60,186 nt of DNA, from contig NZ_JAEINH010000003.1 of NCBI RefSeq assembly GCF_016342785.1, positions 293,129-353,314 of the forward strand, given 5' to 3'. Below the pieces are notes generated by a model. It saw only the letters and a program-made list of their open reading frames with translations. It had not been told where the DNA came from and ran no database searches. The translations under genes and the position numbers were made by a program. Below, piece after piece: positions 1,019 to 32,628 of this stretch; within the stretch, counting starts at the first letter, position 1, and every line of letters starts with the position of its first letter. Source of the DNA: Sanguibacter suaedae. GTDB lineage: Bacteria > Actinomycetota > Actinomycetes > Actinomycetales > Cellulomonadaceae.

Positions 1019-1540
1019 TCACGCCCCGCCGCGGTCCCCGACGTCCTCCCCGAGGCGTTCGGCGAGCTTCGCCCGGCCGGCCTGGACCTGCGTGATGATC
1101 TTGCCGAGGTCGATCTCGAACTCCGCGAGCCGCCGGTCGCAGTAGTCGTCCGCCTCGTGGCGCAGCTTCGCCGCCGTCGCCTCGGCCTCCGCCACGATCT
1201 CGCGCGCACGGGTCTCAGCCTGCAGGACCACCTGCTGCTGGTCCACGAGCTGCGCGGCGCGCTCGCGCGCCGTCCGGATGATGTCCTCTGCCTCGGCCTG
1301 CGCGCCCTCGAGGACGTGGTCGGCGTCCGAGAGCACCTCGTCCGCGCGGGTCAGCTGCGTCGGCAGCGCCTCGCGGAGCTCGTCGATGAGGTCGAGGGCC
1401 TCGTTGCGGTTCACCAGCACGGAGGAGGACATCGGCATGGCCCGCGCCCGCTCGACGATGTCCGTCAGCGCGTCGAGCAGCGCCGGCACACCGACGTGCT
1501 CACCCTCCACGTAGATCTCGTTCACGTCGTCGCTGCTCAT
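1019..1540 (-). CDS. sepIVA: DivIVA-like coiled-coil division protein (SepIVA homologue)
   Basis: A 173-residue protein. The N-terminal segment (LLDALTDIVERARAMPMSSS) resembles mycobacterial SepIVA (Rv2927c) and is followed by a long Ala/Glu/Arg-rich coiled coil (about residues 60-150) ending in a conserved CDRRLAEFE segment. SepIVA is a septation and elongation factor at the membrane. The gene neighbours, DUF177 and rnc on one side and coaD on the other, match the mycobacterial order. The ATG at 1540 has a GAGGAG site overlapping the coaD stop, so the genes are coupled. The coiled coil is shorter than in mycobacteria. Confidence 0.75.
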   Translation of the reverse strand: MSSDDVNEIYVEGEHVGVPALLDALTDIVERARAMPMSSSVLVNRNEALDLIDELREALPTQLTRADEVLSDADHVLEGAQAEAEDIIRTARERAAQLVDQQQVVLQAETRAREIVAEAEATAAKLRHEADDYCDRRLAEFEIDLGKIITQVQAGRAKLAERLGEDVGDRGGA

Positions 1541-1541
1541 C

Positions 1542-2060
1542 TCACTCCTCGTCCGCGGGACCGGGGGCGTTCCCGGCGCCCACCGTGCCACCCAGTGCGG
1601 TCCGCACGGCGGAGGCAACGCCGTCCGGCACCAGATCCGTGATCGTGCCTCCGTGCCGGGCGACGTCCTTGACCAACGACGAGGCGACGTGCGCGAGAGC
1701 CGGGTCGCCGGGGACGAACACCGTCTCGACGCCGACCAGGTGGCGGTTCATGAGCGCCATCGGGAGCTCCGCGTCGAAGTCCGCACCGCCCCGCAGCCCC
1801 TTCACCACGGCGGACGCACCGAGGGACCGGCAGAAGTCGGCGAGGAGCCCGGGCACCACCTCGACACGCACCCCGTCGACGTCCGCGAGCGCGGCCCGTG
1901 CCAGCGCCACCCGCTGCTCGACGTCGAGGAGGGGGGCCTTCGAGGAGTTCCGGGCGACCCCCACGACCACCTCGTCGAACATGCTCCGCGCCCGGCGGAC
2001 GATGTCGAGGTGGCCCAGGGTGATGGGGTCGAAGGACCCGGGGCAGACAGCGAGAGTCAC
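1542..2060 (-). CDS. coaD: Phosphopantetheine adenylyltransferase
   Basis: A 172-residue enzyme that transfers AMP from ATP to 4'-phosphopantetheine, the penultimate step of coenzyme A synthesis. The nucleotidyltransferase signature GSFDPITLGH is at the N-terminus, KGLRGGADFDAELPMA near residue 90 and SSLVKDVARHGG near residue 130. The GTG at 2060 is preferred over one at 2078: the family begins right before AVCPGSFDP, and the upstream choice would overlap rsmD. It lies 4 bp after rsmD and 1 bp before sepIVA, within one operon. Confidence 0.95.
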   Translation of the reverse strand: MTLAVCPGSFDPITLGHLDIVRRARSMFDEVVVGVARNSSKAPLLDVEQRVALARAALADVDGVRVEVVPGLLADFCRSLGASAVVKGLRGGADFDAELPMALMNRHLVGVETVFVPGDPALAHVASSLVKDVARHGGTITDLVPDGVASAVRTALGGTVGAGNAPGPADEE

Positions 2061-2064
2061 GGTC

Positions 2065-2631
2065 TCACGGTAGTGCACCGTCGGTGTCGCGCTCGGCGTA
2101 GTAGACCGCGGTGTCGCCGTACGTCCTGGACGCGACGAGCCGCCACGAGGGCGGCCACGACGGCTCGGGCGACCGGCCGGAGCGTTCGACGACGACGATC
2201 CCGTCGTCCGCGAGCGCGGCCTCGAGGGAGGCGAGGACGTCGGCGACCGTCGCGTCGGTCACGTCGTACGGGGGGTCGAGGAAGACGACGTCCCAGGGGT
2301 GGGCTGCGGGGAGGGTCGCGTACCGCTCCGCGCGGTCCGTGACGACCTGCACCCCGGGGAGGCCGAGCGCGGTGACGTTCCTCGAGCACACGGCGGTGGC
2401 GGCCCGTGCGGAGTCGACGAGGACCACCGTCCGGGCACCACGGCTCGCGGCCTCGAGGCCGAGGGCGCCGGACCCGGCGTAGAGGTCGAGGACCCGGGCG
2501 TCGTCGAGCACGCCGTAGTGCTCGAGGCGCGAGAAGATCGCCTCCCGGACCCGGTCGCTGGTCGGGCGGGTGCCCCTGGGGGGCACCGCCAGTCCTCGGC
2601 CCCCGACCGTCCCTGCCACGATGCGCGTCAC
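2065..2631 (-). CDS. rsmD: 16S rRNA (guanine966-N2)-methyltransferase
   Basis: A 188-residue Rossmann methyltransferase. Motif I is DLYAGSGALGLEA (about residues 49-61) and the catalytic motif is LDPPYD (about residue 119), the DPPY form expected of N2-guanine methyltransferases. RsmD modifies G966 of 16S rRNA during 30S assembly. The start is GTG. It sits between recG and coaD, the standard actinobacterial rsmD-coaD arrangement. Confidence 0.94.
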   Translation of the reverse strand: MTRIVAGTVGGRGLAVPPRGTRPTSDRVREAIFSRLEHYGVLDDARVLDLYAGSGALGLEAASRGARTVVLVDSARAATAVCSRNVTALGLPGVQVVTDRAERYATLPAAHPWDVVFLDPPYDVTDATVADVLASLEAALADDGIVVVERSGRSPEPSWPPSWRLVASRTYGDTAVYYAERDTDGALP

Positions 2632-2668
2632 CGGACCAGCCTACCGAGGCGCTTGCGGTCAGGTGCGG

Positions 2669-4972
2669 TCAGGTGCGGTCGAGGAACTCCTCGCGCTCCC
2701 CGTCGAGGCGTTCGGCGATGGCCTCGCGCAGGGCCGGCGCCCCGTCGAGGCCCGGGTCGGCAGCGACCACCCGGGCGGCGTCCTCCCGGGCGACGGCGAT
2801 GACGTCGGCGTCCTTGACGACCCGCAGGAGCCGCAGAGAGCTCGACCGCCCGGACTGCGCGGCGCCGAGGACGTCGCCCTCGCTCCGCATCTCGAGGTCG
2901 GCTGCGGCGAGCTCGAAGCCGTCGGTCGTCGCGGCGAGGGTCGCGAGACGCTCCCCCGCCGGCGAGCCGGGGGCCGCCCGCGACACGAGGAGGCAGAGCC
3001 CCGGGTCGCTCCCCCGGCCGACGCGCCCGCGCAGCTGGTGGAGCTGGGAGATCCCGAACCGGTCCGCGTCGAGGATCACCATGACGGTCGCGCTGGGCAC
3101 GTCGACACCGACCTCGATGACGGTCGTCGAGACGAGGACGTCGAGGTCGCCAGCGGTGAAGGCGGCCATCGCGGACTCCTTGTCGGCCGGGGTCATCTGC
3201 CCGTGGAGCACGCCCGTCCGCACGCCGGCGAGCGCAGGCTCCGCCCGCAGCGCGTCGACGACCTCGAGGACCGCCCGCAAGGGTGCGCGCGCGTCGTCGC
3301 CGGCCTCCTCGTCGAGGGCCGTGAGCCCGTCGAGGAGATCGGGGACGTCGTCCTCCTGCTGCGGCCGGGAAGGAGCGCCCGACGGGTCGTCCGGGGTGAT
3401 GCGCGGGCACACCACGTAGGCGCGGCGCCCGGCGTCGACCTCCTCGCGGACGCGTGACCAGGTGCGCGCCATCCACGCCGCGTTGTCCGCGGGCACCACG
3501 TGCGTGGTGATCCCGGCCCGCCCGGCGGGCACCTCACGAAGGGTCGAGGTCTCGAGGTCGCCGAAGACCGTCATCGCGACCGTCCGCGGGATGGGGGTCG
3601 CCGTCATGACGAGGAGGTGTGGGACCCGCTCGGCCTTGGCGCGCAGCGCGTCACGCTGCTCGACGCCGAACCGGTGCTGCTCGTCGACCACCACGAGGCC
3701 GAGGTCCGCGAACTGGACGGTGTCGCCGAGGAGCGCGTGCGTCCCGACGACGATCCCCGCAGCGCCGCTCGCCGCGTCGAGGAGGTTCTTCCTGCGCGCC
3801 GCGGTGCTCTGGGAGCCCGTGAGGAGCGCCACCCGGGTGCCGTGCTCGCGCCCGCCGAGCAGGCCGTGCTCGGCGAGGTCGCCCAGGAGCGCGGCGAGGG
3901 TGCGGGCGTGCTGCGCGGCGAGCACCTCGGTCGGGGCGAGGAGCGCGGCCTGGCCACCGGCGTCGACCACCTGGAGCATGGCCCGCAACGCCACGACCGT
4001 CTTTCCGGACCCCACCTCACCCTGGAGGAGACGTTGCATGGGCCGTGGGAGCGCCAGCTCGCGGGCCAGCTCCTCATTGACCGCGCGCTGGCCCTCGGTG
4101 AGGGAGAACGGGAGCGCGGCGTCGAAGTCCGCGAGGATGCTCGCTCCGTCACCGGGGCCGCGGAGCGGACGGGGCACCGCCTCGAGGTGGGCGACCTGCG
4201 ACCGTCGCCGGGCGAGCGCCGCCTGGAGGACGAACGCCTCCTCGTACCGCAGCCGGTCCCGTCCGCGCTCCGCCTGGGCGGCGTCGGCGGGCTCGTGGAC
4301 GTCGAGGAACGCCTGGTGCAGCCCGACGAGCCCCCGGGCCAGGAGCACGTCGTCCGGGACGGGGTCGGGCACGTCGGCCGGTGTCAGCGGGCCGAGGACG
4401 GTGCGCACGGCGCGCTCGACGCGCCACGTCGGCGCGGAGGCGCTCGCGGGGTAGATGGGGACGGGGCGGCCCGCCTCCGCGAGTGCGGAGGACTCGTCGT
4501 CCGCGTCGACGCCGACGAGCAGGTAGTCCGGGTGCGTGAGCTGGCGCTCGCCGCGGTACTCGGAGACGATCCCGGTGAAGAACCCGGTGCGCCCGGGCCG
4601 CAGCCGGTCCTCGTGGACGCGCAGGACACCGGGTCGCTTGGCGAAGAACGTCAGCGCGAGACGGTGGGTCCCGTCGGTGACGACCGCCTGCAGCATCGCC
4701 CCGCCGCGGGAGCGCATCTGCCGCACGGTGGCGGTGGCCACGCGTGCGACGACCGTCACGTGCTCGCCGACGGCGAGCTCGCTCATGTCCGTCATGCGGC
4801 CGGGCTCGCCGTACCGGCGCGGGTAGTGGCGCAGCAGGTCGCCGGTGGTGCGGAGACCGAGCTTGGCGAGCGGCCCGGCCGTGCGTGCGCCGAGGACCGT
4901 GGCGAGAGGCTCGTGGAGGCGGTCCGCGGGGCCCTCGCCCCACGCCTCTCCGGGCGTCGGTGCCGCGCTCAC
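2669..4972 (-). CDS. recG: ATP-dependent DNA helicase RecG
   Basis: A 767-residue helicase that remodels stalled forks and Holliday junctions. An N-terminal wedge/OB region (about residues 20-160) precedes helicase motifs: Walker A GEVGSGKT near 318, DEQH at 430-433, MTATPIPRT near 460, and QLRGRVGRGSDPG in the C-terminal third. Between the two RecA lobes there is a roughly 50-residue acidic insertion (PQQEDDVPDLLDG onward), as often seen in actinobacterial RecG. The GTG at 4972 overlaps the stop of the DAK2 gene by 4 bp, so translation is probably coupled; longer upstream readings are out of family. Confidence 0.95.
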   Translation of the reverse strand: MSAAPTPGEAWGEGPADRLHEPLATVLGARTAGPLAKLGLRTTGDLLRHYPRRYGEPGRMTDMSELAVGEHVTVVARVATATVRQMRSRGGAMLQAVVTDGTHRLALTFFAKRPGVLRVHEDRLRPGRTGFFTGIVSEYRGERQLTHPDYLLVGVDADDESSALAEAGRPVPIYPASASAPTWRVERAVRTVLGPLTPADVPDPVPDDVLLARGLVGLHQAFLDVHEPADAAQAERGRDRLRYEEAFVLQAALARRRSQVAHLEAVPRPLRGPGDGASILADFDAALPFSLTEGQRAVNEELARELALPRPMQRLLQGEVGSGKTVVALRAMLQVVDAGGQAALLAPTEVLAAQHARTLAALLGDLAEHGLLGGREHGTRVALLTGSQSTAARRKNLLDAASGAAGIVVGTHALLGDTVQFADLGLVVVDEQHRFGVEQRDALRAKAERVPHLLVMTATPIPRTVAMTVFGDLETSTLREVPAGRAGITTHVVPADNAAWMARTWSRVREEVDAGRRAYVVCPRITPDDPSGAPSRPQQEDDVPDLLDGLTALDEEAGDDARAPLRAVLEVVDALRAEPALAGVRTGVLHGQMTPADKESAMAAFTAGDLDVLVSTTVIEVGVDVPSATVMVILDADRFGISQLHQLRGRVGRGSDPGLCLLVSRAAPGSPAGERLATLAATTDGFELAAADLEMRSEGDVLGAAQSGRSSSLRLLRVVKDADVIAVAREDAARVVAADPGLDGAPALREAIAERLDGEREEFLDRT

Positions 4973-6660
4973 AGCTCCTCCGTCCCGACGAGCACGTCCG
5001 TCGACGCCCGACCGGAGCGCAGGAGGAGGACCTCGGTGCCGGGTCTCGCGTCCTGCGCGCGAGCGACGACCTCGTCGACCACCGTCGCGTCCGCCTCCTC
5101 GTCCACGAGGAGCGTGAGGAGGACCTCGGCGCCCGCCGTCGCCCCTGCGACGCGTCCCGCCACGGTCGCACCGGCCGCTGCGACCGTGAGCCCTCCCACG
5201 GAGGCGACGTGCACCGACCCGGCGGCGTCGAGCGCCTCGGTGACGCGGTCGGTCTGCGGTGCGCCGGCCCATGCCGCGAGGGCGGCGACGACGTGGAGGT
5301 CGGTGCGCGGCGGGGCGACGGTCACCCTGGGGAGAGCGTCGGGCGCTTCGTCACCGTCACCCGTGGCCGCGAGAGCGCGTGCCGCCTCGTAGGAGGACTC
5401 GTCGACGGGGAGGACGAGGACGCGGTCCTCACCGGTCTCGAGCACCGCGCGGCGCAGGTCGGCGGTGGTGACGTCCTCGTCGACGCGCAGGACCACGACG
5501 GCACCGCTGCGCGCGAGGTCCGCGACGAGGCCGGGCGCCGTCGTGCAGGCGACCACGCCACCCGACCCGGGACCGGCGTCCCGGGGCCCTACGACCTGGA
5601 GCGCGAGGCTGCGGACGACCACCTGCCGGACCGTCGGACGTCGGCCGTCCTCATCGCGGGCGACGACGCGCACCACGTCCTCGGGACGGTCGGTGTGCAC
5701 GTGGACCTGCCACATCGCGCCCCCTGGGGCGGCCGCGGGGCCAGGCACGTCGCCTCCCACCACGACGACCGACTCCCCCAGCTCCTGGAGGTCCCGACGC
5801 AGGCGACCCCCGACGTCGCGCGACGCAGCGACCCGGTCCGCGCCGTCCCGGTGCTCGACGACGAGGACCACCTCGAACTCGCCGTCCACGGCGGGACGGC
5901 CAGGACGCGCCAACGCTCGGTCGGCGCTCTGCTCAGGGGCGGAGAGGGAGCCCATGAGGACGACGGTGCCCTGACCCTCCGACAAGGCACCCGCCGTCGA
6001 ACCGGTACCGGCCGCGACGCAGAGCGCGTCGAGGACCAGGGACAGCCCGTACGCGCCGGCGTCGAGCACGTTCGCCGCGCGCAGGACGTCGAGCTCGTCC
6101 GCGCTGCGCCCGAGCGCCTGCCGCGCACCGTCCCGCGCCGCCGTGAGGACGCCCACGACGTCGCTCCCGTCCGCCAGCGCCGTCGCGGCGCACGCGGCGG
6201 CGACCTCGGCCGCGCTGAGGATGGTCCCGCGCCTGGGGTCGGCGACGGCGCGGCCCGCCGCCTCGGACGCCCCCGCGAGAGCCCGGGCCGTCACCACCGC
6301 GTCGACGACGTCGTCCGCCGCGCCCACGGCGAGCCCACGGAGGTACTCGCTGAGGATGACACCGGAGTTGCCCCGTGCGCCGAGGAGCGCACCGTGGGCG
6401 AGCGCGGCGAGGAGGGCACCGACGGACGCCCCGGCCGACTGCCGGTCGACCTCCTCCTTCGCCCGCGCGAAGGTCAGGCAGAGGTTGGTCCCCGTGTCCG
6501 CGTCCGCCACGGGGAAGACGTTCGCGGAGTCGATGACCCCACGGGCCGCTCCGAGCGCCCGGCAGGCGGTGATCGCCCAGGTGCGGACGGTGTCGGGGGT
6601 GAGGGCGTCGCCGGTGCCCTGCTGCACCGCCGGTCCCGCCGGTCCCGCCAGTCCTGCCAT
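4969..6660 (-). CDS. DAK2 domain protein, FakA/YloV-like kinase subunit
   Basis: A 563-residue protein. Its N-terminal DAK2 (dihydroxyacetone kinase L-like) domain has the metal/ATP-binding motif NVFPVADADTGTNL (about residues 47-60) and GARGNSGVILSE near residue 100. The second half is the middle/C-terminal region seen in YloV/FakA, the ATP-binding subunit of fatty acid kinase in Firmicutes. In Actinobacteria this gene conventionally precedes recG, but its substrate is unproven. The ATG at 6660 has a GAGGAGG site. A Gly/Ala/Pro-rich stretch at the extreme N-terminus is probably disordered. Confidence 0.85.
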   Translation of the reverse strand: MAGLAGPAGPAVQQGTGDALTPDTVRTWAITACRALGAARGVIDSANVFPVADADTGTNLCLTFARAKEEVDRQSAGASVGALLAALAHGALLGARGNSGVILSEYLRGLAVGAADDVVDAVVTARALAGASEAAGRAVADPRRGTILSAAEVAAACAATALADGSDVVGVLTAARDGARQALGRSADELDVLRAANVLDAGAYGLSLVLDALCVAAGTGSTAGALSEGQGTVVLMGSLSAPEQSADRALARPGRPAVDGEFEVVLVVEHRDGADRVAASRDVGGRLRRDLQELGESVVVVGGDVPGPAAAPGGAMWQVHVHTDRPEDVVRVVARDEDGRRPTVRQVVVRSLALQVVGPRDAGPGSGGVVACTTAPGLVADLARSGAVVVLRVDEDVTTADLRRAVLETGEDRVLVLPVDESSYEAARALAATGDGDEAPDALPRVTVAPPRTDLHVVAALAAWAGAPQTDRVTEALDAAGSVHVASVGGLTVAAAGATVAGRVAGATAGAEVLLTLLVDEEADATVVDEVVARAQDARPGTEVLLLRSGRASTDVLVGTEEL

Positions 6661-6696
6661 GTCGAGGTCCTCCTCGGTCGTCCGGACGGACACGAC

Positions 6697-6726
6697 TTGA
6701 GACCGCGCCCGCGCATCGGCTACCCT
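6697..6726 (+). promoter_or_regulatory. Probable sigma-A promoter for rpmB
   Basis: TTGAGA (6697-6702) and TACCCT (6721-6726) are separated by 18 bp, close to the vegetative consensus. Initiation near 6733 would give a leader of about 140 nt before rpmB. This is motif inspection only. Confidence 0.5.
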
Positions 6727-6874
6727 ATCGAGGTTGCCCGGACACACACGGGCATGCGGTCATCCTCAGCACACCACCCACGGGCCCGGCCCGTGACCGG
6801 TGATGCGAGGGCCCGCATCCACAGACCATTGAATTCGCCGCCCACCGCGGCGTGCATGACGATCAGGAGAGACC

Positions 6875-7066
6875 GTGGCTGCCAACTGCGAAGTCTGCGC
6901 AAAGGGCCCGAGCTTCGGGCACAGCATCTCGCACTCGCACGTGCGCACGAAGCGCCGCTGGAACCCGAACATCCAGCGTGTTCGCGCAATCGTCAACGGC
7001 GCGCCCAAGCGCCTCAACGTGTGCACCTCGTGCCTCAAGGCAGGCAAGGTCACCCGCAACGTCTGA
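6875..7066 (+). CDS. rpmB: Large-subunit ribosomal protein L28
   Basis: A 63-residue protein with a CEVC...CTSC zinc-binding pair and the conserved GHSISHSH and RTKRRWNPN segments of L28. It is a 50S subunit component. The GTG at 6875 is preceded by an AGGAGAG site. It is transcribed divergently from the DAK2-recG operon, a common actinobacterial arrangement, and is followed by a perfect hairpin terminator. It is the zinc-containing (C+) form. Confidence 0.97.
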   Translation: MAANCEVCAKGPSFGHSISHSHVRTKRRWNPNIQRVRAIVNGAPKRLNVCTSCLKAGKVTRNV

Positions 7067-7089
7067 GACTCCCCAGCAGGACTCTCACC

Positions 7090-7124
7090 GAGAGCCCGTC
7101 GGACCACGTGTCCGACGGGCTCTC
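7090..7124 (+). terminator. Hairpin terminator after rpmB
   Basis: A perfect 14-bp stem (7090-7103 with 7111-7124) with a 7-nt loop begins 23 bp after the rpmB stop. There is no long T run, which is usual in this high-GC group. Confidence 0.8.
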
Positions 7125-7182
7125 GTGCTCTCCGGAGGCGCGCGCTGTTGGCTCACCGCCCCGATCGTGGCAGGCTGAGCCC

Positions 7183-7695
7183 GTGGACCAACTCGACGAC
7201 GTGACCATCCGCCCGGCGACACCGCAGGACGCAGGCGCCATCGCTCGCATCCACATCGCCTCGTGGCGCGAGGCGTACGCCGGCATCGTGCCGGACGAGT
7301 ACCTCGCGTCCCTCGACGAGGACGCGCGCGAGGAGCGGTGGACGACGATCCTCTCCGACGAGCCGTCCCGGACGTGGATCGCCCAGGTCGCACGGCGGAC
7401 CGTCGGGTTCGCCAGCGTCGGCCCCAGCCGGGACGAGGACGCCGAGCCCGGTGACCTCGAGCTCTACTCGATCTACCTCGACCCCGAGTCCTGGGGGCGG
7501 GGCGTCGCCCGGGACCTCATGCGCACGATCCTCACCGAGGTCCCCGAGACGACCCCCATGTCGCTCTGGGTGATCGCCGACAACGCTCGCGCCCAGCACT
7601 TCTACAAGCGCCACGGGTTCGCCGCGGACGGCGTCGAGCGCCTGGAGCAGTACGGCGACAAGAGCGTCACCGAGATCCGCTACCGCCGCGCCTGA
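7183..7695 (+). CDS. GNAT family N-acetyltransferase
   Basis: A 170-residue protein with a complete GNAT fold: RPATPQDAGAIARIHIASWREAY at its start region (positions about 8-30) is typical of the YitH/RimI-like group, followed by the acetyl-CoA loop ESWGRGVARDLM near residue 105 and the C-terminal ARAQHFYKRHGF motif. It transfers acetyl from acetyl-CoA to an amine; the acceptor cannot be read from sequence. The GTG at 7183 is chosen because the domain begins a few residues later. It is a lone gene converging with thiL. Confidence 0.85.
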   Translation: MDQLDDVTIRPATPQDAGAIARIHIASWREAYAGIVPDEYLASLDEDAREERWTTILSDEPSRTWIAQVARRTVGFASVGPSRDEDAEPGDLELYSIYLDPESWGRGVARDLMRTILTEVPETTPMSLWVIADNARAQHFYKRHGFAADGVERLEQYGDKSVTEIRYRRA

Positions 7696-7705
7696 CGGCC
7701 CCGCC

Positions 7706-8683
7706 TCATCCCGAGAAGTGGTCCCACCCGCCGCCCACGGCCGCGGGCGCACCCTCGACGGTCACCGGCCCGGACGAGCCGGGAGCCGTCGCGACCACAC
7801 GGCCGACACGTCTGAACCCCGCCGGGAGGTCCCCGTCCGGGAAGGTCGCGAGCATGCCGTGGTCCTCACCCCCGGTGAGGACCCACGTCGTCGCGTCACG
7901 TCCCAGCGCGTCCGCCGCCACCCGTACGGCGGCCAGGTCCTCGGCCAGCGCGGTGCCGGGGGCGTCGAGGTCGAGGACGACCCCGCTCGCCCGGGCGATC
8001 CGGCCCGCGTCGCGCACCAGGCCGTCAGACACGTCCATCATCGAGGTCGCCCCGGCACGTGCCGCCTCGAGCCCTGCCTCGAGCGGCGGGTCGGGGCGCA
8101 GGAACGCGGTGACGAGCGCCTCACCGACGTCAGGGCGCCCTTCCCTGAGCAGCTCGAGCCCTGCGGCCGACCGTCCGAGGACCCCGGCGTGGGCGACGAC
8201 GTCCCCCGGGCGCGCGCCGGACCGCAGCACCGGGGCACGCCCCTCGAGGTCCCCGTGGACGGTGACGGCGGCCACCACCGCGTCCCCACCCGAGAGATCT
8301 CCCCCGACGACCGCGGCCCCGACCTCGGCGCATGCCAGGGCGAGGCCCCGCGCGAACCCCGTCACCCAGTCCACCTCGACGTCCCCGGGCACCACGAGGG
8401 ACACGACGAGCGAGGTCGGCCGGGCCCCCATCGCGGCGACGTCGGCGAGGTTCTGCATCGCGGCCCGCCACCCCACGTCCTCACCGGAGGACCAGGAACG
8501 CACGAAGTGCCGGTCCTCGACGAGCACGTCCGTCGACACGACGAAGCGACCGTCGGGGGCGGCCACCACCGCGGCATCGTCACCCGGGCCCACGAGCGTC
8601 GAGGAACCCGACGGGAGCAGGGGGAAGATCCGGGCGAGGAGCTGCTCCTCGGAGAGGTCGCGGACGAGCTCTGGCATGGTCAC
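7706..8683 (-). CDS. thiL: Thiamine-monophosphate kinase
   Basis: A 325-residue kinase of the PurM/AIR synthase superfamily that converts thiamine phosphate to thiamine diphosphate. Motifs visible are GPGDDAAVV near residue 32, STDVLVEDRHF near 50, NLADVAAMGA near 78, MMDVSDGL near 217 and LTGGEDHG near 268. The GTG at 8683 lies 6 nt downstream of a TAGGGT box with no clear Shine-Dalgarno, so the transcript may be leaderless; an ATG two codons in is an alternative. It is divergent from the DUF3515 gene. Confidence 0.95.
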   Translation of the reverse strand: MTMPELVRDLSEEQLLARIFPLLPSGSSTLVGPGDDAAVVAAPDGRFVVSTDVLVEDRHFVRSWSSGEDVGWRAAMQNLADVAAMGARPTSLVVSLVVPGDVEVDWVTGFARGLALACAEVGAAVVGGDLSGGDAVVAAVTVHGDLEGRAPVLRSGARPGDVVAHAGVLGRSAAGLELLREGRPDVGEALVTAFLRPDPPLEAGLEAARAGATSMMDVSDGLVRDAGRIARASGVVLDLDAPGTALAEDLAAVRVAADALGRDATTWVLTGGEDHGMLATFPDGDLPAGFRRVGRVVATAPGSSGPVTVEGAPAAVGGGWDHFSG

Positions 8684-25975: not shown

Positions 25976-26965
25976 ATGAGCCACTCGACCGCGCCCGCGC
26001 TGCGCCACCTCGGTTCCTCCGGACTCACCGTCTCCGTCGTCGGGCTCGGGTGCAACAACCTGGGCCGTCCGCGGACGGCGACGGAGTCCCAGGAGGGCAG
26101 CAACGCCGTGGTGCGCGCAGCGGTGGACGCGGGGATCACGTTCTTCGACGTGGCGGACGTGTACGGCGCCGAGCCCGGGCTCTCCGAGGAGCGCCTCGGC
26201 GTGGCGCTCGGGTCACGCCGCGCGGACGTCGTCGTGGCGACGAAGTTCGGCATGGACGCCCGGGGGGCGAACGGGCCCGACCACGGGGCGCGCGGCTCCC
26301 GGCGGTACGTCATCGCCTCCGTCGAGGCGTCGCTGCGCCGTCTGGGAACGGACTGGATCGACCTCTACCAGTTCCACACCCCGGACCCGGGGACCCCCGT
26401 GGAGGAGACGCTGAGCGCCCTCGACGACCTCGTGCGGTCCGGCAAGGTCCGGTACGTGGGCCACTCGAACCGGGCGGGCTGGCAGATCGCGGAGGCCGAG
26501 CTGCTCGCGAGGTCGCTCGGCACGGAGCGGTTCGTCTCGAGCCAGAGCCACTACAACCTCCTCGACCGCAGGGCGGAGCTCGAGGTGGTGCCCGCCTCCG
26601 AGGCGTTCGGGCTCGGTGTGCTGCCGTACTTCCCGCTCGCCAACGGTCTGCTCACGGGCAAGTACACGCGCGACGACGCACCGGCCGACGGGCGGATCAC
26701 GCACTCGAAGCCGGCCATCCTCGAGTCGGCCCCGTGGGACGCCCTCGAGGCGTACTCCGCGTTCGCGGCGGAGCGCGGCCTGAGCGAGGTGGAGGTCGCG
26801 TTCTCCTGGCTCGCGGCGCAGCCGACGGTGTCGAGCGTCATTGCGGGCGCCACGCGCCCGGAGCAGGTCGCCCAGAACGCGGCGGCCGTCCACGAGCTCT
26901 CCGCTGACGACCTGGCACGCCTCGACGCGATCTTCCCGCCGCCGGAGAAGGTCGCCCTCTTCTGA
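25976..26965 (+). CDS. Aldo/keto reductase
   Basis: A 329-residue TIM-barrel NADPH oxidoreductase. The catalytic tetrad is visible: Asp and Tyr in DVADVYG near residue 60, Lys in VVATKFGMD near 88 and His in LYQFHTPD near 130; nucleotide-binding residues are in GATRPEQVAQN near 285. The family reduces carbonyl compounds; the substrate is not predictable. It is a single gene upstream of the interrupted glycosylase-like gene. Confidence 0.92.
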   Translation: MSHSTAPALRHLGSSGLTVSVVGLGCNNLGRPRTATESQEGSNAVVRAAVDAGITFFDVADVYGAEPGLSEERLGVALGSRRADVVVATKFGMDARGANGPDHGARGSRRYVIASVEASLRRLGTDWIDLYQFHTPDPGTPVEETLSALDDLVRSGKVRYVGHSNRAGWQIAEAELLARSLGTERFVSSQSHYNLLDRRAELEVVPASEAFGLGVLPYFPLANGLLTGKYTRDDAPADGRITHSKPAILESAPWDALEAYSAFAAERGLSEVEVAFSWLAAQPTVSSVIAGATRPEQVAQNAAAVHELSADDLARLDAIFPPPEKVALF

Positions 26966-26997
26966 GGCGGCTGCCGCTGCGCCTGGTGCGGCGCCCG

Positions 26998-27003
26998 TAG
27001 GCT
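26998..27003 (+). promoter_or_regulatory. Minus-10 box for leaderless host gene
   Basis: TAGGCT ends 6 nt before the ATG at 27010 and there is no Shine-Dalgarno between. This promoter would now also transcribe the intact copy inside the insertion, which follows on the same strand. Confidence 0.4.
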
Positions 27004-27009
27004 GGCCCC

Positions 27010-27690
27010 ATGACGAGCAGCACCGGGACCGCCGACCACCCCGAGGTGGTCGCCGTCGACCGTCCCGGCGGTGTCGACGACTCACCCGGGACTCTCGAGC
27101 CCGCACGCTGGGTCTCCCTGGCCGATCTCCACGCCGCGCGAGCGGACGCCCTCACCCGGGGGTGGCGGGAGCGTCGCGGCACCGGGGTGGAGCACCAGAT
27201 CGAGGACTTCCTCCACACGTACTACCCGGCCCGCCCGGCGCAGCTGCGGCGCTGGCACCCCGGGGCCGGCGTGACGCTCGCGTCCGCGCCGGACGTGCCG
27301 GGCGCGGCGGAACGGTCGACGTGGCGCTGGTACGTGGTCTCGGACACCGGTGCGACGCTCGACGTCGCCGCGTTCCTCGCCGACCGCGGCGACACCGTCG
27401 CGTACGTCCGTGACCTGCTCGTGTCCACGGCGTCGCGTCCCGCCGCCCTGGGATGCTTCGGGCTGCACGAGTGGGCGATGGTCTACCGCCAGGGCGGCGA
27501 CACCCGGCACTCCTTGCCGCTGCGACTGGGCCCGGAGGGGACCGACGCCGTCGTCGAGGCACACCCGGTGCGCTGCACGCACATCGACGCGTTCCGGTTC
27601 TTCACCCCCGAGGCCAGGCCGCTCAACCAGCTGCAGCCCACCCGGGACACGCAGCGCGACCTCGAGCAGCCGGGCTGCCTGCACGCCGGG
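27010..27690 (+). pseudogene. Interrupted '3-methyladenine DNA glycosylase'-type gene, 5' part
   Basis: The first 227 codons of a gene whose family is widely labelled 3-methyladenine DNA glycosylase in Actinobacteria, although I see no helix-hairpin-helix or AAG motif. Conserved blocks are EDFLHTYYPARPAQLRRWHPG, GCFGLHEWAMVYRQ, DAFRFFTPEARPLN and LEQPGCLHAG. At the conserved motif normally read as MDL-KW the frame runs into foreign DNA and stops at 27774. The missing 3' part lies at 30888-31157 in the matching frame; joining the two gives a 316-residue full-length protein. The strand, frame and spacing prove a clean interruption. Confidence 0.9.
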
Positions 27691-27699
27691 ATGGACCTG
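27690..27699. repeat. Left copy of insertion-site direct repeat
   Basis: GATGGACCTG, identical to 30887-30896. It covers the Met-Asp-Leu codons of the interrupted gene and marks the left junction. The inner six bases GACCTG recur at 29881-29886. Confidence 0.8.
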
Positions 27700-27770
27700 G
27701 TTAGGTCGCAAACATGCAGCTCGGCACGCACCGAAGCCGGTCGCATGAGACAGCCTGTGAAGGCATGCGC

Positions 27771-28658
27771 ATGAGAACGACGACACTCAGAGAACTGAAG
27801 AGCCCAGACTGGCGATTGCTCGAGAACTCGCACGCACTTCGTGCAGATGCGCTGACGGCGGGCTGGCGGGAGCGGCGCCAGACTGGAACGAAGCACGCGA
27901 TCGAGGACTTTCTCTTCACCTACTACAGCACGAAGCCGTCCCACCTTCGGCGTTGGCATCCGGGCGCAGGCGTCGTCTTGTTGGGTACCCCACTGGATTT
28001 CGGCGATCGCTCCTCGTGGCGGTGGTACGAAGCCGTCGAGGAGGGACTGGCTCTTGACGTCGACGCCTACCTCGCGGACCGCGAAGAGACCGTGCTTTAC
28101 ATCCGCGACCTCCTGGCACGGACTGCCTCGCGGCCAGCCAACGTCGGGTGCTTCGGTCTCCACGAGTGGGCGATGATCTACCGGCAGACCGACACGACGC
28201 GCCATCCCCTGCCTCTGCGCCTCGGCGCGGACGGAACCGATGCGGTCGTCGAGGCACACCCCATTCGCTGCACCCACTTCGACGCCTTCCGGTTCTTCAC
28301 GCCAGACGCAATCCCCCTCAACAAGGTGCGGCTGACTCGAGATCAGCAGCCGGATTTCGAGCAGCCGGGATGCCTACACACCGGAATGGATGCTCTGAAG
28401 TGGGCGATGAAGCTCTCGCCAGCCATCGACAGCGCGCTCGTGCTGGACTGCTTCGACCTCGCGAGGGACATCCGGGTTCTCGACATGCAGGCCAGCCCGT
28501 ACGACGTCCGCGAGTACGGGTTGGAACCCGTGGCAATCGAGACCGCTGAGGGCAAGGCTGAATACTCCAAGCGTCAACGCGATTTCGCGGCGAGGTCCGC
28601 GCCGTTGCGGAGACGCATCATCGAAGCGTGTGACCTCCTTCTCAACTTGCGATCCTAG
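27771..28658 (+). CDS. Intact replacement copy of the '3-methyladenine DNA glycosylase'-type gene
   Basis: A 295-residue, full-length homologue of the interrupted host gene, with all conserved blocks (EDFLFTYYSTKPSHLRRWHPG region, GCFGLHEWAMIYRQ, DAFRFFTPDAIPLN, CFDLARDIRVLDMQASPYDV). The ATG at 27771 has GAAGG seven bases upstream; an in-frame ATG at 27765 is too close to it. It lies 71 bp inside the left junction, in the host gene's orientation, so the host promoter can serve it. At the position of the junction motif it encodes MDALKW and the DNA core reads GATGCT (28389-28394) instead of GACCTG. Its stop overlaps that of the convergent remnant (CTAG). Confidence 0.9.
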   Translation: MRTTTLRELKSPDWRLLENSHALRADALTAGWRERRQTGTKHAIEDFLFTYYSTKPSHLRRWHPGAGVVLLGTPLDFGDRSSWRWYEAVEEGLALDVDAYLADREETVLYIRDLLARTASRPANVGCFGLHEWAMIYRQTDTTRHPLPLRLGADGTDAVVEAHPIRCTHFDAFRFFTPDAIPLNKVRLTRDQQPDFEQPGCLHTGMDALKWAMKLSPAIDSALVLDCFDLARDIRVLDMQASPYDVREYGLEPVAIETAEGKAEYSKRQRDFAARSAPLRRRIIEACDLLLNLRS

Positions 28659-28835
28659 GAGGAGATACTCGCCCGAACGGCAGCCAGAGCGACTGAGGCG
28701 CGTTCCTCCTGCCCGTGGGGCCAGCGGGCTGGATCGTTCACGTAGCTGGTGCGTTCCTCTGACGATGACATGCGACCGCCCATAGCGTTCATGTACCACC
28801 CGGTCGAGGCCGCGACCGATCGTTCAGAACCTCTG
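28655..28835 (-). pseudogene. Remnant of the convergent membrane-anchored protein gene
   Basis: Read on the minus strand this gives a C-terminal fragment (NDPARWPHGQEERASVALAA, then VRASISS and a stop) matching the end of the protein at 30185-30805 (NDPAHWPAGQKERASAALAS, then VRSGIPS). Similarity fades with frame loss near 28800-28835, so the upper bound is approximate. The tail-to-tail stop overlap with the gene copy on its left is the same as in the right module. Confidence 0.7.
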
Positions 28836-28880
28836 GCCTCGGAGGCAACTCATGTCAGAGGCGTCTGCGATCCTCTGACT

Positions 28881-29747
28881 GTGGACGACTACCAATGGAT
28901 GCCGCCGGGACTCGACCCGGAACGGGCACAAGCATTTTTGACTCCGAGCACTGGGCTACCGGAAGCCGCGTCGGAGGCGATCCACCGGTGGATCGTCGAT
29001 GATAAGTACAGCCACGAGAGCCTGTCTTGGAAGTTCATGATCGACTTCCAGTCCGCGAGCCACATGGACCTAGGTCTCCTCCACCAGAACACTGTGCAGG
29101 TGGGCGACGCTCTGAAGTACCTGCGAACCCTCACAGAGGACCAGCGCACCTACCTCCTCGACTACATGCTCAGTGGGCTCTACCCGAGACCCGATATCGG
29201 ACGCGCAATGCCTGAGCGGGCCACACGTCTCGCTAGCATCCTTCGTGCATCCGGTGCAGGCTGGACCGTTATGGCTCGCCGGGGACGATGGGGTCTCCAG
29301 CGAGTAGTCCCGGTGGGCGTGACAGACGTAGTTGAGTCCGTGCTGAGCAGCGCCGACCGGGCGTCAGCTTTGCTGCGGACCGCGTGGTCCGGGGCCTTCG
29401 GACTAGAGTCTTCTCCGAGTCATGCGTACTACGACGCTGTGAGGGCGGTCGAGGTATATTCCTGTCCGCTCATCTCGCCGCGTGACAAATTGGGGACTCT
29501 CGGGAAGGACATCAACGTCCTGCGCAGCAAGCCCGAGGCTTGGACGTTCGCACTCGTCGGAAGTGACCGGACGTCCGCCGTCGAGCATCTGGTATCCGCA
29601 ATGCAGCTGCTCTGGCATAGCCAGACAGACCGCCACGGGTACGCCGACTACCGAGACATTTCACAGCTCGAGGCACAGGCGGCTGTACTGCTAGCGTCCA
29701 CGATCGTTGGGTGGCTCTCGCAAGGCGCATTGCGGCGGGCGACCTGA
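28881..29747 (+). CDS. Unknown protein with Abi-like C-terminal motif
   Basis: About 288 residues from a GTG at 28881. The open frame extends up to 28749, but that stretch coincides with the decayed remnant on the other strand, so a downstream start is preferred; ATG 28899 is another option. The C-terminus (LWHSQTDRHGYAD, then a long Ala/Val helix SQLEAQAAVLLASTIVGWLS) resembles the RHG-plus-helix ending of abortive-infection (Abi_C-like) and related actinobacterial hypothetical proteins. The middle segment YYDAVRAVEVYSCPLISP fits the same group. No signal peptide. A defence role is only a guess from this pattern and the mobile context. Confidence 0.6.
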   Translation: MDDYQWMPPGLDPERAQAFLTPSTGLPEAASEAIHRWIVDDKYSHESLSWKFMIDFQSASHMDLGLLHQNTVQVGDALKYLRTLTEDQRTYLLDYMLSGLYPRPDIGRAMPERATRLASILRASGAGWTVMARRGRWGLQRVVPVGVTDVVESVLSSADRASALLRTAWSGAFGLESSPSHAYYDAVRAVEVYSCPLISPRDKLGTLGKDINVLRSKPEAWTFALVGSDRTSAVEHLVSAMQLLWHSQTDRHGYADYRDISQLEAQAAVLLASTIVGWLSQGALRRAT

Positions 29748-29880
29748 CGTGACACCTGGCGGGGAATGCGCGAAACGACCACATTGGCACGCGACCTTTC
29801 TGCGATTGGGGGTCGGAGCGCCCCGGGTGCATCCGCGTGGAGTACGTCACCAACGCTGGTCGTGCGCCGATGTGTACATC
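29748..29880. other. Non-coding right end of the left module
   Basis: No convincing gene is seen between the unknown gene and the middle GACCTG repeat. The last bases before the repeat (GTGTACATC) weakly resemble those before the right-hand repeat (GTGTGACGATG), as expected of two element right ends. Confidence 0.4.
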
Positions 29881-29886
29881 GACCTG
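29881..29886. repeat. Middle copy of insertion-site core
   Basis: GACCTG, the six-base core shared with both outer repeats. It is followed after 12 bases by AACATGCATCTCGG, nearly the same as the motif 11 bases after the left repeat, so it marks the junction between two modules. Confidence 0.65.
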
Positions 29887-29958
29887 CAAAAGCGTCAAAA
29901 CATGCATCTCGGGGAGTAGAGCAACCCGCTACAAGGGACGACCCGGGAAGGCACACAC

Positions 29959-30188
29959 ATGAACACCACGGCCCCAGAGAACTCTTGAGTCAGGACGGGC
30001 GAACGCTCGCACGCACGCGCTTCGAGCGGACGCTCTGACGGCGGGCTGCCGCGAGCCGCGCCAGCCCGAAGTGAAGTATGCGATCGAAGACTCCCTCTTT
30101 ACCTACTACAGCACGAAGCCGTCGCTACGTCGGCGGTGGCAACCGGATCATCAAGGCGTGCGACCACCTGCTCGGCGAGCGCTCCTAA
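29959..30188 (+). pseudogene. Decayed third copy of the glycosylase-like gene
   Basis: It starts ATG at 29959 like the intact copy, is out of frame after nine codons (TGA), then regains recognisable sequence: HALRADALTAGCREPRQPE and AIEDSLFTYYSTKPSLRRRW. There a large internal deletion joins it directly to the gene's last 14 codons (RIIKACDHLLGERS, then stop) in another frame. The AIED...STKPS stretch is close to the intact copy at DNA level. It cannot encode a functional protein. Confidence 0.85.
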
Positions 30189-30805
30189 CTTGGGATCCCG
30201 GACCGAACTGACGCCAAGGCAGCGGACGCCCGCTCCTTCTGCCCCGCCGGCCAGTGCGCTGGGTCGTTCGAGTAGCTGATGTATGCCTCAGGAGACGCCA
30301 TGATGTCCGTGCGAATCTCGCTACTCCCCGTGCTCCGCCAACCTCGGCGGTCAACCAGCACCATCAGGTTGATCTGTGCAGGCTCGCCAGTGCACAGCAC
30401 CCGGGGGTCAACGTCGAATTCAACGAACTTGGTCGCCACCGCGCGGCCTCCCACGACGAACGGATGCGGGAAGTCTTCGGTGTCGTCCGGACGCGGCATG
30501 ATCGTCGTCCTGAACTGCTTCGTGGGTGCCAAGACTGGGACGCCGGCGCTAACGAGTTTCAACCGAAGATCAATCACCACGAGCGGCTTCGCGCCTGTGT
30601 TGTAGAGGGTGACGGGAAGGCGCAGTGCGGCCCGATCGGATCTGGCATAGCCCGAGAACACCACGACTTGCGTCATCAAGAGGCGCCCAGGCCGAACGTT
30701 GATCCACCAAAATGAGGCGACAGTGAAGAGCAGAGCACAGAGGGCGATCACAACCGCGGGTGTCAGTCCTGACGGGATTGACGACGGATCCGCACCTAGG
30801 AACAT
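30185..30805 (-). CDS. Membrane-anchored protein of unknown function
   Basis: A 206-residue protein with one N-terminal transmembrane helix (LTPAVVIALCALLFTVASFW region, about residues 14-35) and a soluble remainder with beta-rich features (VTLYNTGAKPLVVIDLRLKL; NLMVLVDRRGWRS). It may be anchored with its bulk on either side. I do not recognise the family. The ATG at 30805 is used; a TTG two codons upstream is possible. It is the convergent partner of the gene copy in this module, and its C-terminal fragment persists in the left module. Confidence 0.65.
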   Translation of the reverse strand: MFLGADPSSIPSGLTPAVVIALCALLFTVASFWWINVRPGRLLMTQVVVFSGYARSDRAALRLPVTLYNTGAKPLVVIDLRLKLVSAGVPVLAPTKQFRTTIMPRPDDTEDFPHPFVVGGRAVATKFVEFDVDPRVLCTGEPAQINLMVLVDRRGWRSTGSSEIRTDIMASPEAYISYSNDPAHWPAGQKERASAALASVRSGIPS

Positions 30806-30886
30806 GACCAAACTCTAGAGCAGTGGCTCGTTGGAACGACATACCTACAGACCGGTTCCGTCGGGTGCGTGTGTATGCGGTGTGAC

Positions 30887-30896
30887 GATGGACCTG
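30887..30896. repeat. Right copy of insertion-site direct repeat
   Basis: GATGGACCTG, identical to 27690-27699. The ATG within it is in frame with the displaced 3' part of the host gene, so recombination between the two outer repeats would restore the gene exactly. Confidence 0.8.
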
Positions 30897-31157
30897 CTCA
30901 AGTGGTCCCTGAAGCTCGGCCCCGCAGCACCCGGCGACCTCCTCCTCGACTGCTTCGAGCTCGCCCGCGACATCCGCGTCCTCGACATGCAGGCGTCGCC
31001 CTACGACGTGTCGTCGCTGGGCCAGGAGGCCGTCCCGATCGAGACCCCGCAGGGCCGGGCGGAGTACGTGCGCAGGCAGCGCGGCTTCGCCGACCGGGGA
31101 CAGGCGCTCCGCGAGCGTCTCGTCGCCGCGTGCGACCGCGTCCTGACGCTCGGCTGA
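30888..31157 (+). pseudogene. Interrupted '3-methyladenine DNA glycosylase'-type gene, 3' part
   Basis: The last 89 codons of the host gene, beginning at the Met-Asp-Leu motif: LKWSLKLGPAAPGD, CFELARDIRVLDMQASPYDV, ETPQGRAEYVRRQRGFADRG and a normal stop. It aligns with the C-terminal part of the intact copy at 27771-28658 and has the high GC of the host flanks. On its own it lacks a proper start and the N-terminal two thirds. Confidence 0.9.
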
Positions 31158-31167
31158 CCGCCCCTGC

Positions 31168-32628
31168 TCATCCCTTCGCCGCGGTACCGGTGGCCGTCGT
31201 CGACCACACGTCGCCGGGCAGGTCCCCGGGGAGCAGCGGGTTGCCGGCCCCGACGAACGGCGCGTCCTGCCGCCCCGTGCGCACCGCCTGCTCGTAGTCC
31301 TTCAGTGCGCCGAGGGCCCACCTCCCGAGGAGGACGATCGCCACGAGGTTCACCGTCGCCATGAGACCCATCGCCACGTCGGCGAGCGCCCACACGACCT
31401 TCAGGCTGAGGAGCGCGCCGAGAGCGACGGCACCGAGGACGAGCACCCGGAGGACGACCAGGCCGCGTCCTCGCACGCCGAGGAACTGGAGGTTCACCTC
31501 TGCGTAGGAGTAGTTCCCGAGGACGGAGGAGAACGCGAACACGAAGATCAGGGCGGTCAGCAGGGGCGTGGTCCAGGTTCCGAGGGACGCTGCGACCGCG
31601 CCGGCGGTGAGCTCGGCGCCGACAGCCTCGGTGGTCTCCCCCGGTGAGTACACGTCGGGACCTGCGACGAGGATCATCATGGCCGTGGCGGTGCACACGA
31701 GCATGGTGTCGACGAAGACCCCGAGCGACTGGACGAGGCCCTGCTTCGCTGGATGGCTCACGGTGGCCGTCGCGGCGGTGTTGGGCGCGCTGCCCATGCC
31801 CGCCTCGTTGGAGAACAGACCTCGCTTGACCCCGTTGAGCAGCGCGGCGAGGAGGCCCCCGCCGGTCCCGGCGACGGCCTCGTCGAGACCGAACGCCCCC
31901 TCGACGATCTGGGCGAGCACGCCGGGCACCGCGCTCGCGTTGAGGGCGACGACGACGAGCGCGAGCAGCAGGTACACGCCCGCCATGATCGGCAGGACGA
32001 CGCCGGCGACCGTCGCGACACGACGGACCCCGCCGAAGAGCACGGGGGCGGCCAGGAGCACGAGGAGGACGGCGCTCCACCCGGTCCCGACGTCGTGCCC
32101 GGTGGCGAGGGCGTCGCTGATGGTGTTGGCCTGGACCATGTTGAACGCGAAGCCGAACGTGAACACGAGCAGGACGGCGAAGAGGACCGCGAAGGGCCGC
32201 GAGCGCAGGCCCGTCCGGATGTAGTACGCGGGTCCGCCGCGGAAGGTCCCGTCGGTCGTGCGCTCCTTGAACATCTGGGCGAGCGTGGCCTCGACGAAGG
32301 CGGTGGCCATGCCGACGAGCGCCACGACCCACATCCAGAAGATCGCGCCGGGCCCGCCGAGGGTGAGTGCGATGGCGACGCCGACGATGTTCCCGGTGCC
32401 GACCCGGGAGGCGAGGCCGACGCAGAAGGCCTGGAACGAGGAGATCCCACCGTCGGCCCCTCCGCGCGACCCGACGACCGTGCGCCACATCTGCCGCACG
32501 AGACGGACCTGGACGGCTCGGGTGCGGACCGTGAAGTAGAGGCCGGCACCGACGAGGAGGTAGATGAGCAGGTACGTGTAGAAGAACGTGCTCACGGGCT
32601 CGATGACCGTGGTGGTGAAGTCGTCCAT
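31168..32628 (-). CDS. Sodium:alanine/glycine symporter (AGCS family)
   Basis: A 486-residue multi-pass membrane transporter. The family signature is FCVGLASRVGTGNIVGVAIAL near residue 70 (positions about 68-88), with GGPGAIFWMWVVAL, GGPAYYIRTGL and GLFSNEAGMGSAPNTAA near residue 270. It imports small neutral amino acids with a cation. The C-terminal tail after about residue 445 is cytoplasmic and divergent. The ATG is at 32628. It converges on the displaced 3' part of the interrupted gene. Confidence 0.92.
   Translation of the reverse strand: MDDFTTTVIEPVSTFFYTYLLIYLLVGAGLYFTVRTRAVQVRLVRQMWRTVVGSRGGADGGISSFQAFCVGLASRVGTGNIVGVAIALTLGGPGAIFWMWVVALVGMATAFVEATLAQMFKERTTDGTFRGGPAYYIRTGLRSRPFAVLFAVLLVFTFGFAFNMVQANTISDALATGHDVGTGWSAVLLVLLAAPVLFGGVRRVATVAGVVLPIMAGVYLLLALVVVALNASAVPGVLAQIVEGAFGLDEAVAGTGGGLLAALLNGVKRGLFSNEAGMGSAPNTAATATVSHPAKQGLVQSLGVFVDTMLVCTATAMMILVAGPDVYSPGETTEAVGAELTAGAVAASLGTWTTPLLTALIFVFAFSSVLGNYSYAEVNLQFLGVRGRGLVVLRVLVLGAVALGALLSLKVVWALADVAMGLMATVNLVAIVLLGRWALGALKDYEQAVRTGRQDAPFVGAGNPLLPGDLPGDVWSTTATGTAAKG

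Follow-up and report, generated by a model that had tools for sequence, protein, structure and literature searches.

We analyzed a 60,186-nt stretch of the genome of Sanguibacter suaedae (contig NZ_JAEINH010000003.1, positions 293,129–353,314; hereafter the window), in which a conserved protein gene is split by an insert of two tandem modules. Comparison with other genomes makes it very probable that elements with large serine recombinases re-use a site within the coding sequence of this gene as their bacterial attachment site (attB), that they mostly bring a replacement for the gene they break, and that the window holds two tandem members of this kind without a recombinase. Large serine recombinases exchange the attachment site of the element (attP) and attB at a short core, and the left and right junctions of an integrated element are here called attL and attR. 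An original prediction, made from the letters of the window alone, had proposed that elements target a conserved coding motif in this gene and leave a full-length gene behind. This is supported by 16 sites occupied at the same codons, 14 of them with a complete reading frame.

The split gene and its two modules

The host gene starts at 27010, is cut at codons 228–229 (Met-Asp) and resumes with its 3′ part at 30888. As had been predicted for a cut at Met-Asp-Leu, joining the outer flanks in silico yields an uninterrupted frame of 316 codons. The insert (27694–30890) is composed of module 1 (2187 bp, 27694–29880) and module 2 (1010 bp, 29881–30890). The individual features are listed in Table 1.

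The original prediction had placed the module borders at GACCTG, found at both ends of the insert and in its middle. Taken alone this hexamer is not informative, as it occurs 65 times in the window against 52.3 expected occurrences (7 of 100 shuffles reach 65), also at 27412 and 29741. The two outer ends do share the longer ATGGACCTG, which occurs at these two places only (0.21 expected; 3 of 100 shuffles reach two), and the middle site reads ATCGACCTG. What convinces us that the site is real is the cut at the same codons in homologous genes of other genomes, not GACCTG alone.

Left end plus gene copy are homologous between the two modules (local alignment score 244; best of 200 shuffles 46). 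The left ends alone align with a score of 36, where the best of 2000 shuffles gives 32, and AACATGCAKCTCGG is found twice in the window, once in each left end, with an expectation of 0.00. Two findings had been named that would speak against the predicted elements, a left-end similarity that vanishes upon alignment and relatives without an intact empty site. The similarity holds, and each of the five other genomes of the genus carries one long, uninterrupted match to the gene.

A full replacement copy and a convergent gene had been predicted for each module. The copy is intact in module 1 (295 codons), whereas that of module 2 has decayed to about 230 bp; a full copy is excluded there by an internal deletion, a broken frame and a stop at 29919 in the frame that leads into it. 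Conversely, the convergent gene (208 aa) is present in module 2, and was rejected for module 1, where only a 38-residue relic of the same gene type is left and the cargo gene, of 332 aa, is co-directional. Because the DNA of this relic can be aligned with module 2, the two modules seem to descend from one arrangement, with the cargo of module 1 apparently exchanged behind a constant copy.

The absence of a recombinase from the insert was predicted correctly, inasmuch as none is seen among its open reading frames (ORFs). In the whole genome the sole match to PF00239 is an ORF of 246 aa on another contig, which has the size of a small resolvase, and no cognate recombinase was found.

The GC content at third codon positions (GC3) is 0.93–0.94 in the host parts, 0.78 in the copy and 0.71–0.75 in the two cargo genes. 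This bears on another conceivable origin, in which the gene was duplicated in tandem in the ordinary way, decay followed and the GACCTG repeats arose by chance. The near-chance frequency of GACCTG would agree with such an origin, but the two host parts fit together without a seam, their codon GC is not that of copy and cargo, and the same cut recurs in other genomes with unrelated cargo. We therefore reject a tandem duplication as highly improbable.

Table 1. Features of the split gene and its insert, in window coordinates.
Feature	Position	Strand	Remarks
Native 5′ part of host gene	27010–27693	+	228 codons up to Met; joins 30888–31157; GC3 0.93
Left junction, core ATGGACCT	27691–27698	+	Same 8 bases join attP, attL and attR in G417
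Module 1 left end	27699–27770	+	Contains AACATGCAGCTCGG at 27711–27724; open in the host reading frame
ATGA overlap	27771–27774	+	Stop of broken host frame (27772–27774) overlaps start of copy (27771)
Intact replacement copy, module 1	27771–28658	+	295 codons; 65% and 61% identical to host 5′ and 3′ parts
3′-end relic of the 208-aa gene type, module 1	28661–28774	-	38 residues; DNA alignable with module 2
Co-directional cargo gene, 332 aa, module 1	28749–29747	+	Abi_C match under the Pfam cut-off
Middle junction, ATCGACCT	29878–29885	+	Junction alignment
Module 2 left end	29886–29958	+	Contains AACATGCATCTCGG at 29899–29912
Decayed copy, module 2	29959–30188	+	About 230 bp; internal deletion, frame broken
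Convergent cargo gene, 208 aa, module 2	30185–30811	-	Relatives (57–63% identity) in 3 of 220 other genomes of the family
Right junction, core ATGGACCT	30888–30895	+	Junction alignment; outer-end repeat ATGGACCTG
Displaced native 3′ part of host gene	30888–31157	+	Nearer relatives than the 3′ part of the copy (135 vs 126 bits); GC3 0.94

Occupied sites and recombinases in other genomes

The gene has matches in 189 of 221 family genomes and in 299 of 396 and 204 of 394 genomes sampled from the order and the class, respectively; these samples overlap and include the genome of the window. We recognized 16 occupied or formerly occupied sites, namely the window, 12 of the 52 other genomes with multiple matches, and three public loci out of the 80 best of 581. 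The 52 genomes (18 from the family, 10 from the class and 24 from the order) were re-checked by match list, with G097, G609, G865 and G501 added, and the 12 were identified by a 3′ part of the gene that is present twice or displaced at the site. Sequence stretches were examined for 17 of the 52 genomes and for G097, with G116 used only as a reference. The remaining multi-match genomes were judged mostly by coordinates and look like cases of a split single gene, contig edges, frameshifts or weak second hits. As the order and class searches scored at most five candidates per genome, and as insertions with a single match go unnoticed, the number of 16 is a lower bound. ORFs in the relatives were chosen by a script based on codon GC, and the labels tape-measure-like and type I restriction-like come from reading the sequences, not from a search.

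The insertions lie in six genomes of the family (G042, G047, G056, G093, G104, G112), four of the order (G242, G417, G526, G541), two of the class (G656, G736) and in the public loci L034, L047 (Micromonospora) and L051 (Streptosporangium). At 13 of the 16 loci, window included, both junctions align at the same codons. The two junctions of G417 are on two contigs, and L047 and L051 yielded no host fragment on the right. Common to left and right junctions is GA[CT], placed in ATGGACCT or in close variants of it. The distance from core to core is 0.6 kb in G736, 1.1 kb in G526, then 1.8–6.4 kb, 21 kb in G112 and 48 kb in G656, where a prophage contains a tape-measure-like ORF of 1572 aa; the phage in G417 measures about 53 kb.

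At four of the 16 sites (L034, G112, G656, G417) a protein with a Resolvase and a Recombinase domain is encoded at the right junction. This pair of domains is the mark of large serine recombinases, and its carriers include the prophages of ~48 and ~53 kb as well as elements of 21 and 3.3 kb. The notion of a family of tiny, recombinase-free elements, part of the original prediction, is thus not upheld. L051 retains a recombinase relic of 52 residues that is 79% identical to the recombinase of L034.

The attachment sites can be read most directly in the G417 assembly, where attL is on contig 2 and both attR and attP are on contig 1 (L194, L195, L196), the attP lying between the recombinase and the left arm. 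This attP is identical to attR up to ATGGACCT and to attL from ATGGACCT onward. The recombinase gene is seen twice in contig 1, 52.6 kb apart, and the assembly therefore contains a tandem prophage or a circular form. A short core common to the attachment sites is found both in G417 and in the 13 loci with both junctions aligned. The arms of the G417 attP form a dyad at 17 of 23 positions, and none of 5000 shuffles was as good. Dyads are also strong in G656 and L034 (15 of 23 each; 0 and 4 of 5000 shuffles, respectively) and are weak in G242 and G112 (p 0.03 and 0.046).

Relatives of the L034 recombinase at E ≤ 1e-40 are present in 59 of the 396 genomes of the order. Among the loci examined, including those of 30 of these matches, target gene and recombinase stand together only in L034, L051 and L129. 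The recombinase of G656 is 47% like that of phage phiCAM, whose attB was looked for and not found, and the G112 recombinase had no match in viral_contigs.

Some further loci are worth recording here. In L193 (G541) a 6.4-kb insertion at the same codons (1514–7923) comes without a second 3′ part. At the right junctions of L125 (2208) and L126 (3979) the right arm resembles the left half of attB (TTGCCTGCAC...ATGGACCTG); these junctions are thus like a fresh attB and might accept a further element. A stray 3′ part of the target gene, preceded by an attB-like stretch, is located on the minus strand of L198 (G288 contig 9, 5412–5876) inside a transporter-like cluster, and the intact gene of G288 is on another contig.

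Restoration of the gene, its replacement and the cargo

The complete frames at 14 of the 16 sites arise in two ways: ten have a second 3′ part in frame and four a whole extra copy (the window, L034, L047 and L051). In five of the ten (G042, G056, G093, G104, G112) the host frame continues into the insert for 36–37 extra codons, which end in a second PLTRxxQxxYEQPGCLHAx and are followed by another 3′ part from MD on. The junction is seamless in the other five (G047, G242, G656, G736, G526). When scored against the genes of other genomes, the displaced 3′ part outdoes its fused or copied counterpart in 9 of 12 pairs, although in G042 and G112 by 1 bit only.

In three of the loci with a whole copy the broken host frame and the copy share a stop-start overlap of 4 bases, which is ATGA in the window and L047 and GTGA in L034. 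The window copy stands apart from the L034 and L047 copies in the tree, so the overlap is seen in two lineages. As the stop of the host frame overlaps the start of the copy, the arrangement suggests that translation of the broken gene may be handed to the copy by translational coupling. Use of the host's own start is supported too, where the original prediction had the host promoter drive the new copy: the broken host frame reads on into the element as far as the copy's start codon.

In L060 and L075, both from Micromonospora, an allele of the L034/L047 type is the only copy seen, and the gene order is as in L034 and L047. It looks as if a foreign allele has perhaps replaced the core gene there.

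One plasmid record names the gene product 3-methyladenine DNA glycosylase, a name that comes from this deposited record only. Five relatives of the gene were found in plasmid records, and none in viral_contigs or phage records. Neither Pfam nor NCBIfam gave a match to the host gene at E 1, PADLOC was likewise without result, and a sequence search of the PDB found no relative at E 1. For the confident fold model (predicted local distance difference test score 93.5) the 245 PDB matches all fell short of the E 0.001 threshold; at the top of them stood the diiron enzyme PolF with E 0.23. An Rfam scan of 26900–31300 gave nothing useful.

The attachment codons encode residues that are invariant in 44 aligned proteins (G200, C201, L202, H203, M206 and D207). 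In DNA conservation the site ranks 80th of 772 gene windows, which is about the top tenth and not the peak. Of the 55 residues that do not vary among 84 homologues the window copy retains 54, and of the 92 conserved at the 95% level it retains 89; for the joined host gene the figures are 54 and 91, respectively. Presumably the intact copy in module 1 does the gene's work. In the tree the window copy adjoins the genes of four genomes of the same genus with moderate support (85/83), a position that makes a close relative its probable source. The joined host gene is found elsewhere in the same clade of 30 rows. The L034 copy groups with those of L047 and L051, far from the host gene of L034 itself, whose row is long and whose placement is unsure.

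The cargo of the related elements includes ApeA (G056 and G093), SIR2 and AAA proteins that are ThsA- and IetA-like together with a ParA-like ATPase and DUF6414 (G242), and a TIR-like protein with type I restriction-like genes (G112). No Pfam match was obtained for the large cargo protein of G042, one protein of G056 and one of G541. In the window, the 332-aa protein has its Abi_C match below the cut-off and relatives in 11 of 220 other genomes of the family, and the 208-aa protein has relatives in 3 of 220; PADLOC gave no match to this cargo. From the company of such cargo in the relatives we would guess at a defence role for the cargo of the window. The relatives of the 208-aa protein in L215, L216 and L217 lie beside other accessory genes, and these stretches, as examined, hold no relatives of the target gene or of large serine recombinases.

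Proposed mechanism, precedents and meaning

The explanation that we favor would run as follows. The codons for GCLHA-x-MDLYKW in a conserved actinobacterial gene of ~300 aa would be the attB of large serine recombinases. Phages and smaller elements would enter by exchange between attP and attB in ATGGACCT and thereby cut the gene at codons 228–229. Directly behind the left end most of them carry a replacement, be it a new 3′ part in continuation of the host frame or the complete gene, with the recombinase, where present, at the far end. This replacement would be served by the host promoter and, where a full copy is present, also by the host frame as far as the stop-start overlap. The window modules would have entered via a recombinase acting in trans, or would have lost their own after arrival. 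In the simplest order module 2 would have come first and module 1 later, at the left junction of module 2; an intact module 1 copy beside the host promoter would then make the inner copy redundant and free to decay. Directly visible are the site and its re-use with different cargoes, the recombinases of relatives, one set of attP, attL and attR, the replacement structures and the overlap; for the window we infer this history of the recombinase and this order of arrival, as well as a copy that works and is translated by coupling, and a cargo of anti-phage defence.

As a large serine recombinase of their own is missing there, we class the window modules as relatives of the serine-recombinase family and not as full members. 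Most likely the window contains two tandem recombinase-less members of a serine-integrase family; put more simply, they may be reduced or satellite members of a larger family. Cis-mobilizable elements (CIMEs) are recombinase-less islands between attachment sites that show tandem accretion. The window modules resemble them in being tandem, devoid of a recombinase and bounded at both ends by att-like sites. They differ from CIMEs in that modules of the window type carry a replacement of the target gene.

Several observations weigh against this explanation. The gene was not found in 32 of the 221 family genomes and is thus not essential there. A replacement is not obligatory either, as G417 and G541 (2 of 16) are without one: counted from the core ATG and including the stop codon, the frame ends after 21 codons in G417 and after 7 in G541, and the stretches examined, which cover the interior of the G417 phage in part, revealed no second 3′ part. 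In 3 of the 12 pairs the displaced part does not score better than the fused or copied one. This is unexplained for G047, G526 has a decayed fragment, and L034 is an exception because the reference set holds other copies from elements. In G047, G736 and G526 no recombinase is seen, and the second 3′ part may have another origin. The dyad is not significant in 7 of 11 elements other than G417; in the window it is weak for module 2 (12 of 23, p 0.02), absent for module 1 (8 of 23, p 0.59) and has p 0.10 for the outer pair. The recombinases of L034 and G112, which were the two compared, are only 34% identical, and a specificity shared by all of the recombinases can for this reason only be inferred. 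The gene of 316 codons that excision of the window modules would restore was obtained by joining in silico.

Some of these points would also suit modules that, instead of site-specific exchange, used homologous recombination within the flanking gene or spread between strains as part of the chromosome. The insert has no recombinase, copy and host gene are 61–65% identical, and the dyads of the small elements are weak. However, the junctions of the small elements fall in the same 8 bases as those of the elements with recombinase, and a foreign copy at 61–65% protein identity is a poor substrate for homologous recombination. We regard this route as improbable.

A nearly even chance is given to the possibility that the modules are relics, that is, ordinary serine-integrase elements immobilized by the loss of their recombinase after insertion, the tandem having formed by two successive insertions before this loss. 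This differs from the favored explanation only in the fate of the recombinase. The insert is without a recombinase, and at PF00239 sensitivity no large one is found in the genome; the module 2 copy is decayed, and relatives are seen in stages of decay (L047, L051, G526, G736). Yet small recombinase-less elements with a complete replacement and open cargo genes are recurrent (G042, G056, G093, G242), and these fit satellites at least equally well.

More tentatively, serine-recombinase elements and their recombinase-free relatives may use the motif as a shared docking site, at which tandem arrays build up from phages, integrase islands and defence cassettes without a recombinase. These cassettes would be true satellites that rebuild the gene, the full-copy kind by means of a stop-start overlap that hands over ribosomes. 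Host fragments and cargo would later decay and the imported allele remain, so that foreign alleles would take the place of a core gene (Micromonospora L047, Streptosporangium L051 and perhaps L060 and L075). This extended scheme is possible, though less likely than not.

Published systems are compared here on the accessible portions of their descriptions. Full-length replacement, which the original prediction had called unusual for a recombinase-free element of 1–2 kb, has a precedent for an interrupted protein gene in the recA genomic island (RME) of Vibrio cholerae S24. This island of 32.8 kb encodes a "phage integrase" and XerS, has a complete divergent recA copy at one end and the integrase at the other, and restores the host gene upon excision (PMC4405046). 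The elements described here are like it in occupying one site in a conserved protein gene and in the complete divergent copy at one end, which module 1 has and module 2 does not. They differ from it by their large serine recombinases, the many cargoes and hosts and sizes of 0.6–53 kb, and also by 3′-part and whole-copy versions at one site, the stop-start overlap and tandem recombinase-less members. In tRNA-dependent lysogeny, too, the junction does not rebuild the broken host gene, for which the element supplies a full replacement; there a tRNA gene and a tyrosine integrase are involved, here a protein gene and a serine recombinase (PMC10865867).

Distantly related large serine recombinases have been described to use one conserved protein-gene site, for example in a prolyl isomerase gene (PMC10083194). 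The attB is conserved and coding as here, but the targets are described as disrupted and replacement copies go unmentioned in the accessible text; the main text has 0 hits for "glycosylase" and does not name the target gene of this analysis. Streptococcal integrative and conjugative elements in rumA have a serine integrase acting inside a protein gene and exchange the 3′ part of the target, as here; the exchange in rumA alters protein length and frame, whereas in our elements the frame continues into a homologous 3′ part (PMC4701971). The phiJoe-type element at SCO2603 of Streptomyces coelicolor is likewise a small, variable serine-integrase element in the attB of a phage within a conserved gene, but its site is near the end of a radical SAM gene and the accessible text mentions no replacement copy (PMC5311408). 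A Streptomyces paper states that few integration tools restore their target, which is mostly inactivated (PMC12924846). Among the literature matches listed, judged by title and start of abstract and with subscription journals thinly covered, we found no paper on a serine integrase attB in this 3-methyladenine DNA glycosylase gene. The principle has precedents in the Vibrio recA island and in tRNA-dependent lysogeny, and a rich comparative set is available here.

Taken together, the split gene illustrates how a conserved protein gene can serve integrative elements as a landing site without lasting loss of the gene. The 3′-part and the whole-copy solution occur at the same codons, in one searchable system, which provides both a group of serine recombinases with an apparently common, conserved coding attB and a test bed for satellites without a recombinase. 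The site is an actinobacterial cargo site that can be scanned for via displaced 3′ ends, and it points to a possible route by which core genes may be replaced by foreign alleles.

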